A stretch of 22,191 nucleotides of DNA from positions 1 through 22,191 of IMG/VR virus record IMGVR_UViG_3300024518_001182; one strand, written 5' to 3'. This stretch comes from a virus. Both the position numbers and the translations under genes were made by a program. Below are positions 547 through 21,713 of the stretch, piece after piece (positions within the stretch are counted from its first letter, which is position 1; each line of letters starts with the position of its first letter). Below the pieces are notes generated by a model that saw only the letters and a list, made by a program, of their open reading frames with translations, had not been told where the DNA came from and searched no databases.

Positions 547-936
547 TTATTCTGTTTTTCTGTTGTCCCACCTAGCTTTGTAGCCTCTGATGTCATAGTG
601 GACAAATGTATCATATAATCCTAAACCTCCTTCTGGAATAAAATCCCATTCTATAAGATATTCTATAACATCGTATAAATGCTCAGGGGTTATTGAATTC
701 ACGGATAAGTCTGCTGCTTTCCCTGTTACGTGTTGAGAAGTGTCTTTACTTCCAATAGACCTATTGAATTGAAGAGATCGATAAGAGCTATTCACATTTA
801 TTGAAACACCAATAGTATCTCTTATAACCTGTAAATAACTAGCAAGAACTCGTGTATTCGCCAATACATCATCTGGCATTTCACTGCCATCACTACAATC
901 AAATTCATGCTTGCTAAAGTTAGTTGTTAGTTTCAT
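547..936 (-). CDS. Peptidase M15-family endolysin (zinc D,D/L,D-peptidase)
   Basis: A 129-residue protein with the M15A zinc-peptidase signature. SSYRS at 50-54 is followed by SQHVTGKAAD at 67-76, which supplies the first two zinc ligands H69 and D76. FVHYDIRG at 111-118 carries the third His (H113). M15 peptidases cut peptide cross-links or stems in peptidoglycan, and single-domain versions of this size are common phage endolysins. No signal peptide is visible, so access to the wall would depend on the holin-like neighbours. I start it at the ATG at 936 because this makes an ATGA overlap with the preceding gene's stop. A 22-codon upstream extension to 1002 would lie entirely over the neighbour's membrane segment and adds nothing typical of the family. 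Confidence 0.88.
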   Translation of the reverse strand: MKLTTNFSKHEFDCSDGSEMPDDVLANTRVLASYLQVIRDTIGVSINVNSSYRSLQFNRSIGSKDTSQHVTGKAADLSVNSITPEHLYDVIEYLIEWDFIPEGGLGLYDTFVHYDIRGYKARWDNRKTE

Positions 937-1677: not shown

Positions 1678-1695
1678 TTTTATTGAATTTAATTA

Positions 1696-5940: not shown

Positions 5941-6375
5941 CTAATCGTTTACAACAACATATTCGTTATCGGTTGTTTCTGCTTCAATGTATTCTCCTTT
6001 CTGGATATTGTATCTATCGTATTCTGTTTGGTCTGTACATAGAATTATATCTCTATATAAAACCTCTTCTGACCCTATTGAATTGTCAAGGAAGTCGTCA
6101 ACGCAATCTTCTGCTTCTATAATTCCATAATCAGCTTCTACTCTAGCAAAGAAATCAGAACTAGAAGAAACAACTCTAAGAGAATACCTACTTCCTTCTG
6201 TGAGATTAAATATTGCTGTTGCGTCTATATAGTTATCAGCCCTATTGAATTCAGCAGAGAGTATAATAACATCTCTCTCGTCTTTTCTAGTAAGAACAAG
6301 TTTACCTGCAAGTAGATACTTTCTTGGTATAAATGTTATTGTTTGTGCGTCAGTTGACGTGGTTAGTACTATCAT
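5941..6375 (-). CDS. Conserved small virion-associated protein of unknown role
   Basis: A 144-residue acidic, beta-rich protein. It starts MIVLTTSTDAQTITFIPRKY, has NLTEGSRYSLRVVSSSSDF in the middle, and LYRDIILCTDQTEYDRYNIQ followed by KGEYIEAETTDNEYVVVND at the C-terminus. Small proteins with this R-D-x-I-x-C-T-D-Q then Y-x-x-x-KG-x-Y-x-E pattern are recalled from structural regions of Bacteroidota prophages without an assigned function. It follows a terminator-like hairpin and is preceded 2 nt before its ATG by the TTAGTTAATTTT element, so it may begin its own transcript covering the portal and connector genes. Confidence 0.6.
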   Translation of the reverse strand: MIVLTTSTDAQTITFIPRKYLLAGKLVLTRKDERDVIILSAEFNRADNYIDATAIFNLTEGSRYSLRVVSSSSDFFARVEADYGIIEAEDCVDDFLDNSIGSEEVLYRDIILCTDQTEYDRYNIQKGEYIEAETTDNEYVVVND

Positions 6376-18112: not shown

Positions 18113-18131
18113 ATGAAGCTGACGCTTTACC
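18113..18131. repeat. 19-bp direct repeat, copy A
   Basis: ATGAAGCTGACGCTTTACC differs from copy B at 18396 by one base (G/T). The two copies are 283 nt apart in the same non-coding block and same orientation. AAGC[TG]...GCTT is partly palindromic, as expected for a protein-binding site. Confidence 0.6.
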
Positions 18132-18395: not shown

Positions 18396-18414
18396 ATGAA
18401 GCTTACGCTTTACC
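18396..18414. repeat. 19-bp direct repeat, copy B
   Basis: ATGAAGCTTACGCTTTACC, one mismatch from copy A at 18113. It stands 2 nt before the first of two TATTGAATT repeats, which groups three kinds of element at the right side of this block. Confidence 0.6.
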
Positions 18415-18416
18415 CT

Positions 18417-18447
18417 TATTGAATTAATCCTATAGCCTATTGAATTG
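18417..18447. repeat. Two TATTGAATT(G/A) repeats, left block
   Basis: TATTGAATTA at 18417-18426 and TATTGAATTG at 18438-18447, 21 bp apart start to start (two helical turns) and in the same orientation as the six-copy cluster at 20990-21166. They are preceded by CCCT and GCC, as in most other copies. Confidence 0.7.
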
Positions 18448-20483: not shown

Positions 20484-20678
20484 TTATTTATTTAAAGGTT
20501 TATATTTTTTGATAGTCCATGCACCTATGCTATATTTTCTAGTGCTCAAGTGTTCGTATATTTTAGGATAAGGAATAAAAGAAACAAGTTCTAAATCATT
20601 ATAATAATTTTGCACCAAAGCATTATTTCCTTTATTATGTAGAAATTTGTTTTCGACTTTTATATTTGACGGTATCAT
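20484..20678 (-). CDS. 64-residue basic hypothetical protein, first gene after the repeat block
   Basis: It begins MIPSNIKVENKFLHNKGNNA and continues LVQNYYNDLELVSFIPYPKI. Basic, no recognised domain. It is the first gene downstream of the 490-nt repeat-bearing region, so whatever that region controls on the minus strand would act on it first. A TATTTTTG word (TAnnTTTG on the minus strand, 20747-20754) lies about 70 nt before its ATG, without a matching -33 box. Confidence 0.5.
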   Translation of the reverse strand: MIPSNIKVENKFLHNKGNNALVQNYYNDLELVSFIPYPKIYEHLSTRKYSIGAWTIKKYKPLNK

Positions 20679-20945
20679 AATGTAAAAATTAAATTGTTGT
20701 GCCTTATTGACATTGCTAAATTACATTATATAAATGAATCCCACAACAAAAATATTAAAAAACTACACATTTTTTTATAAAAACTAGCTACTTTTTTGCT
20801 AACTGTGTAGTATTTAAGGTTTTACGAATAAATATATTTATGTTTGGGTTATGGATATTAAAAACGTCAATTTTCTATATAATGAACACGCTACGAATAG
20901 CAATATATTTGATATACGCAAGAAAAAAGTGATATATTTTTTACC

Positions 20946-20971: not shown

Positions 20972-20989
20972 TATTTTGAAATATACCCC

Positions 20990-21166
20990 TATTGAATTGC
21001 GGAGGGGGTATTGAATTGCAGGGGTATTGAATTGAAATTTCCTTATTCGAATATAGAATAACCTATTGAATTGCAGTATCGTACTGGAAACAAAACACTG
21101 GTAACAAAAAAATAGGAGTAACGATCTAACGCTACCCCCTATTGAATTGACACCCCTATTGAATTG
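20990..21166. repeat. Cluster of six direct TATTGAATTG repeats
   Basis: Perfect copies start at 20990, 21009, 21025, 21064, 21140 and 21157, all in one orientation, with start spacings of 19, 16, 39, 76 and 17 bp. Four are preceded by CCC or CC and two by GGGG, so the repeat is really a decamer with a G/C run at its left edge. The spacing is irregular and the unit short, so this is not a CRISPR array. It may bind a phage replication initiator or regulator. Confidence 0.85.
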
Positions 21167-21171
21167 TTTCC

Positions 21172-21372
21172 TTACTTAGACAGTAAAACATTAAGTAGCT
21201 CGTCTCCGTGCTTTACGATAAGCTCTTCTAACGTGTATCCGAACCTACCATAGTTGTACACGAACTCAGAAATCCCCTTATGATAGTCCAACTCGTGTTG
21301 TCTCCTTTTAGCAGTGACTTGATCAGCTACTATCTCTCCGTTTGACAGCTTGTATGCTTTTATTTCTTCCAT
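21172..21372 (-). CDS. 66-residue hypothetical protein
   Basis: It begins MEEIKAYKLSNGEIVADQVT with AKRRQHELDYHKGISEFVYN, then YTLEELIVKHGDELLNVLLS. The opening KAYKLSNGEIVxDxxxA followed by a helical stretch and a C-terminal helix is a common small-phage-protein shape. The ATG lies 2 nt after the stop of the 112-residue gene, so the two are one unit. The gene ends at the border of the repeat cluster. No function can be given. Confidence 0.6.
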   Translation of the reverse strand: MEEIKAYKLSNGEIVADQVTAKRRQHELDYHKGISEFVYNYGRFGYTLEELIVKHGDELLNVLLSK

Positions 21373-21374
21373 AT

Positions 21375-21713
21375 CTATTGTTGTTTTCTTATTTCTTGCA
21401 TGGCTTTTTCTATATACAACACCCCATCAAGCATTTCTTCCTGAAAATGATTAAGCCATTCTAAGACACTTAAATCATCTCTATCAAGCGTAGTGCCATA
21501 TTTATCTATACCTACCTTAGAACGACTCTTATACTTATGTACTACAGACTCTACAACTGTATCAACTATCTCAAACTTCTCTGATACAAACCAACACTTT
21601 ATACCAGTATCATCTATAATCTCTAAACAACCATTCTCTGTTGCTGTTACTGGGTAAATGCTGTCTTGTGTTAGATCATCTACACCGTTATCTCTTATGT
21701 ATTTCGCTTTCAT
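21375..21713 (-). CDS. 112-residue two-domain protein with MazG-like helical half
   Basis: Residues 1-52 are a small beta domain (MKAKYIRDNGVDDLTQDSIY, then CLEIIDDTGIKCWFVSEKFE), like short SH3-type phage proteins. Residues 55-112 form a helical part with HKYKSRSKVGIDKYGTTLDR and DDLSVLEWLNHFQEEMLDGV. The K-x-R-x-x-x-GIDKYGTxLDRxDL then EEMLDGxLYIE pattern recurs in phage proteins, and the ExxxD near the end resembles the metal-binding EExxD of all-alpha NTP pyrophosphatases. The two halves occur apart in recalled phages, so this may be a fusion. A nucleotide-pool role is possible but unproved. Confidence 0.6.
   Translation of the reverse strand: MKAKYIRDNGVDDLTQDSIYPVTATENGCLEIIDDTGIKCWFVSEKFEIVDTVVESVVHKYKSRSKVGIDKYGTTLDRDDLSVLEWLNHFQEEMLDGVLYIEKAMQEIRKQQ

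Follow-up and report, generated by a model that had tools for sequence, protein, structure and literature searches.

The window, that is the whole stretch of 22,191 nt analysed here, is a 22-kb tailed-phage fragment with genes for a portal, an XkdF-like capsid protease and an endolysin as well as genes of tape-measure size. By its portal the nearest isolate is the Nonlabens phage P12024 (37% identity). All called genes of the window are on the minus strand. The main feature is an array of six copies of the word AATTCAATA on the minus strand (20990..21165; words at 20990, 21009, 21025, 21064, 21140 and 21157), each followed by GG(GG) or CCCC. It begins 6–7 nt past the stop codon of the gene at 21172..21372 (minus strand), which codes for 66 amino acids without assigned function and is located directly upstream of the array in the direction of transcription. 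For the next gene beside the array, 21375-21713, a pattern scan of viral contigs found no relative. Folding and a terminator scan predict an intrinsic-terminator-like hairpin within the array (21106..21142, minus strand; ATAGGGGGTAGCG-TTAGAT-CGTTACTCCTAT and then a T run), the 5′ arm of which is formed by the end of the 21140 word plus its G run. A second predicted hairpin (20983..21027, minus strand) pairs ATACCCC with GGGGTAT and encloses two words, and the whole array folds with a z of -2.73 versus shuffles. About 240 nt downstream of the array and upstream of the gene 20484-20678 lies the Bacteroidetes-type -7 element TATTTTTG (20747..20754, minus strand).

The remaining words of the window, all likewise on the minus strand, are more scattered. 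Two form a short array in a region of small genes (18417..18446; words at 18417 and 18438). One lies in a gap just past the stop of the gene 1696-2109 and a few nucleotides ahead of an ATG (1681..1689). Four are within genes, where they are read as AAT-TCA-ATA in the endolysin-like gene 547-1002 (691..699) and in the gene 5941-6375 (6076..6084), and as TTC-AAT-AGG in the same two genes (762..770 and 6243..6251, respectively); these are the frames given in the first-pass annotation. The AT-rich small-gene region also has an imperfect direct repeat of approximately TGAAGCTKACGCTTTACC at 18114-18131 and 18398-18415, whose second copy abuts a word.

Written on the plus strand the word is TATTGAATT, and the window has 13 exact copies on this strand and 0 on the other. 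The first-pass annotation had listed these 13 copies by eye and proposed a comparison with shuffled sequence; in 100 shuffles the expectation is 0.78 (sd 0.75, maximum 3), and one-mismatch variants are mildly enriched (31 versus 17.4 expected). One detail can be added to that list: it described 18417-18447 as one copy with a variant, and the one at 18417 is also an exact 9-mer. Among all 9-mers of the window TATTGAATT is the most over-represented (Poisson -log10 p 15.9 versus 5.3 for the next unrelated word), and therefore the word does not owe its prominence to selection by eye. Since all genes of the window are on the minus strand, the word is AATTCAATA on the sense strand, usually followed by a run of GGG or CCC, which agrees with the bordering runs noted before. 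The strand bias noted at the same time is a real strand lock, and the locked strand is the sense strand.

We scanned viral contigs for two close copies of the word and obtained 97 loci, many of them with 5–11 copies on one strand and 0 on the other. A second survey started from TerL and was independent of the word. Loci whose TerL is at least ~64% identical to that of L083 carry AATTCAATA in sense (clade A; pooled 245 sense versus 8 antisense, 12.8 expected). Below ~61% identity AATTCAATA is mostly absent and TTAAACGCARTA is present instead, again followed by GGG or CCC (clade B); its 9-base core TTAAACGCA occurs 147 times in sense and 0 times in antisense with 2.1 expected. In clade C, which comprises few genomes (G017, G038 and two TerL relatives), GTTTAATATGA occurs strictly in sense ahead of a run of G or C, and the arrays begin 4 nt past a stop codon. 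On the TerL tree each word is restricted to its own clade; most rows that lack a word belong to fragments which break off shortly past TerL. The contigs have 5–31 copies of a word made up of a 9–12 bp core plus flanks, and the strand lock holds over whole contigs. A look at related phages had been proposed earlier and shows that the word is present clade-wide in the relatives; it marks a whole clade of phages, all uncultured, which are distantly related to Nonlabens phage P12024. The different words in the same layout in the sister clades had been missed. From the nearest isolates P12024L/S AATTCAATA is absent. A literature search for this word returned unrelated matches only, and further searches met no published account of repeats of this kind in flavobacterial phages.

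The words within genes exceed what the encoded proteins require. Compared with synonymous-codon shuffles we count 17 versus 1.8 for in-gene sense AATTYAATASS, 15 versus 1.1 for in-gene sense TTAAACGCA and 4 versus 0.6 in the window alone, numbers which overstate the independent events because homologous copies were dropped only if their context was identical; in general, homologous loci inflate several counts. As the in-gene copies exceed these shuffles in several frames, the nucleotide-level function suggested by the first-pass annotation is supported. In three alignments the columns of the word are better conserved than the flanks, and the copy number of the arrays differs among near relatives. 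Single words are also found inside structural genes and TerL. The run after the word is GGG in 76 cases, CCC in 78 and mixed in 32, so that G and C runs appear to be exchanged as whole runs. Neighbouring runs are the same in 55 cases versus complementary in 34. Simple hairpin arrays between neighbouring words are rejected, as same runs outnumber complementary ones.

Where the arrays are located is also characteristic. In the word-bearing phages small genes fill an interval of 4–7 kb that parts TerL from the structural genes, and the majority of the words fall within or beside it. In P12024L, P12024S and G016 this distance is 0–42 bp and there is no word array; intergenic lengths are upper estimates because the simple codon-usage script used for gene calling misses genes, among them the window's endolysin gene. 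The array starts at most 20 nt past the upstream stop codon in 15 of 61 cases in clade A and in 9 of 21 in clade B versus 7–8% for random placement. A strong terminator-like hairpin directly follows 28% of the clade A arrays versus 6% of random windows from the same gaps. In clade B it follows 17%, an enrichment which is confined to the strongest hairpins and falls below the control at lower thresholds. Within 150 nt after the array we find TANNTTTG, which we take to be the Bacteroidetes-type -7 element, for 28 of 61 arrays in clade A (46% versus 12% expected, p 1e-10) and for 15 of 25 in clade B (60% versus 17%, p 2e-6), the expected rates being from position-matched controls. At several homologous sites clade A words are 2–4 or 9–12 nt upstream of TANNTTTG. 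The typical order thus is gene, stop codon, array, promoter and next gene. In clade B, however, a promoter is upstream of the words in 8 of 25 cases, and some words must therefore be in transcript leaders.

Words in an antisense gene beside TerL keep the main orientation, thus the lock goes with the main transcript or with the genome rather than with the local gene. A dATP/dGTP diphosphohydrolase-like gene beside TerL on the opposite strand (L063:9398-9811:+) took up words in the part coding for its N-terminus with the frame remaining open. Just past TerL in G017 and G038 (L363, L365/L366) a small opposite-strand ORF is nested among clade C words, and in G038 one of these words lies within its frame.

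We suggest, as a tentative reading for which the odds are slightly short of even, that the word is a sense-oriented asymmetric cis site at which a clade-specific factor would stop or gate transcription one way. The site would be TRTS-AATTYAATA with a run of G or C behind it. Its arrays come after a gene's stop codon and ahead of the sigma-A-type promoter that serves the next gene, mostly in the small-gene interval that separates TerL from the structural operon. A sequence-specific DNA-binding factor, presumably a phage protein, could occupy the arrays, and once bound it would halt or silence RNA polymerase coming from upstream. In some cases an overlapping intrinsic terminator would assist the arrest, and words against a -7 element would serve as operators. 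If the reader co-evolves with the word, the drift of the word between phage clades is as expected.

Two other accounts of the same layout are each unlikely, though they deserve consideration. A phage activator or repressor could act on initiation only, bound upstream of the small genes' sigma-A-type promoters, and contact with RNA polymerase would set the orientation of the sites. The arrays are indeed upstream of -7 elements, several of them at a nearly fixed distance of 3–4 or 9 nt. However, the distances between array and -7 element run from 3 to more than 130 nt, about half of the arrays are without a recognisable -7 element within 150 nt, and lone words occur within structural genes and TerL. 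Nor would such a regulator require the placement directly after stop codons.

About as doubtful is an action at the RNA level, in which a protein binds AAUUYAAUA, or the corresponding word of clade B or C, as a single strand within read-through transcripts and causes or prevents termination or processing, the G/C runs being parts of hairpins. The strict sense orientation and the arrays after stop codons suit this idea, the runs frequently supply the 5′ arm of a terminator hairpin and pair slightly more than with shuffled flanks, and the window array folds better than its shuffles. On the other hand the G and C runs are interchangeable with more same than complementary neighbours, and words upstream of promoters are absent from the transcripts of those promoters. 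Whole-run G/C replacement and words ahead of promoters thus favour reading of DNA; interchangeable, unmixed runs fit double-stranded DNA better than reading of an RNA sequence.

A protein that reads the word could be the DnaA-domain-IV phage protein (PF08299), which we find in 20 of 28 records searched and in all three word clades. The words would then be its DnaA-box-like sites, DnaA boxes being asymmetric 9-mers too; standard boxes are scarce and not enriched in these phages. We nevertheless reject this protein as the reader and consider the idea improbable, because its recognition helix does not co-vary with the word: the motif [DN]HATVLH is common to clades A and B despite their different words, the protein is otherwise very diverse within clade A where the word is constant, and a divergent copy is encoded by P12024 which has no words. 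All three clades also encode a sigma-like factor or a sigma-like HTH protein, and a sigma-like gene is present in P12024 as well. Phage_integrase matched in 0 of 17 records, which may be incomplete contigs, whereas all control genomes match; no HTH_3 repressor scored above the cut-off and the Pfam tables list no repressor either. An immunity-repressor role is therefore unlikely. The Pfam and PHROG lists obtained contain no phage RNA polymerase. Among 299 genomes no prophage with a TerL relative at E <= 1e-60 was found, a weak negative as the search had no positive control.

Equally improbable is a polar motif for DNA processing, be it a Chi-like recombination site, a replication-fork barrier, replication iterons or a packaging site. 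The lock over whole contigs, the genome orientation kept by copies inside the antisense gene and the arrays adjoining TerL would agree with it. The first-pass annotation had considered a packaging or replication motif; for this we find no support, since the arrays follow stop codons and precede -7 elements and the lock follows the direction of transcription. Its description of the cluster as iteron- or operator-like stands for the operator-like character and not for replication iterons, of which a single cluster by the initiator or origin is expected, whereas we find several arrays per genome, at operon borders and tied to promoters, and single copies in genes. A host-wide motif is rejected as well: in 299 Flavobacteriaceae, which may not be the true hosts, there are ~4 copies per strand per ~3.4 Mb, a density about twice that of a reversed-pattern control and far below that of the phages. 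Recombination sites are rejected, as in the L083 family the arrays do not coincide with mosaic breakpoints. P12024 with its homologous TerL and structural genes has no words. Altogether, the one-way stop or gate proposed above fits better than iterons, phage promoters, packaging sites or a Chi-like motif of the host.

Several other repeats were seen outside the window. In G011 the palindrome TACACTTAGTGTA forms arrays with 8–10 copies in two intergenic regions (L270:9270-9381 and L271:10033-10141), a separate operator-like repeat. A second repeat is ACATAGTGTAATATA in G005 (L262:4892-4945 and L263:2725-2833) and ACATAGTGTATTATA in G036; its 7–8 copies are grouped into two intergenic clusters, each ahead of genes. 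In G033 (L359:11806-14279) start codons of small genes have ACTAAAACTATG in seven copies, which resemble start-associated sequences. In P12024L TTTCCGTTAATA, exact or with one mismatch, is ~16 nt upstream of start codons (L256:3015, 5396, 24755, 25995) and is possibly a late promoter element.

It is conceivable, albeit less probable than the cis site as such, that these apparently lytic phages possess a stoperator-like system in which a rapidly diversifying putative reader on tandem, direction-locked arrays at operon borders shields the promoters of early genes against read-through, and that one lineage has evolved three or more word specificities. If true, this would reveal a more general means by which phages insulate their operons, and it would provide natural pairs of word and reader for finding the reader and for studying the evolution of DNA specificity.

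How do the words compare with known systems? The closest cultured relatives, Nonlabens P12024L/S (Inhavirus), have homologous TerL, portal and structural genes but lack the words, and no interval of small genes parts their TerL from the structural genes. DnaA boxes are asymmetric 9-mer sites in irregular arrays, and DnaA can block transcription. The arrays described here are similarly irregular arrays of asymmetric 9-mers in phages with a DnaA-domain-IV-like protein, but the words differ from DnaA boxes and show no co-variation with the recognition helix. T7-type promoters are strand-locked words which end in a G run and drift between relatives. In these features our words are alike; they differ in their tandem spacing of 13–21 bp, in C runs as frequent as G runs and in their position after stop codons.

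Transcription stop sites with a locked direction have, to our knowledge, been studied in depth essentially only in the cluster A actinobacteriophages, in which they are part of lysogenic immunity. The stoperators of L5 and other cluster A phages are many short asymmetric sites, oriented to transcription, in intergenic gaps and in some promoters, with a consensus that differs between subclusters (PMC9283540, PMC6550527). Our system differs from them by dense tandem arrays with 2–8 sites, by the run of G or C that follows the word, by copies in genes, by overlap with intrinsic terminators, by hosts which presumably are Bacteroidota, and by phages which look lytic, with no repressor and no integrase found. 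Because we found no tyrosine integrase and no HTH_3 repressor and the reader is putative, we say that the system works like stoperators and do not file it as such. Sites of ~13 bp there and of a 9–12 bp core plus flanks here are asymmetric and many per genome, follow transcription (here 245:8 and 147:0), occupy short intergenic spaces and promoters, and have a subclade-specific consensus, here three words in separate TerL clades. Three drifting words in one lineage of uncultured, apparently lytic phages would then follow the same logic as stoperators.
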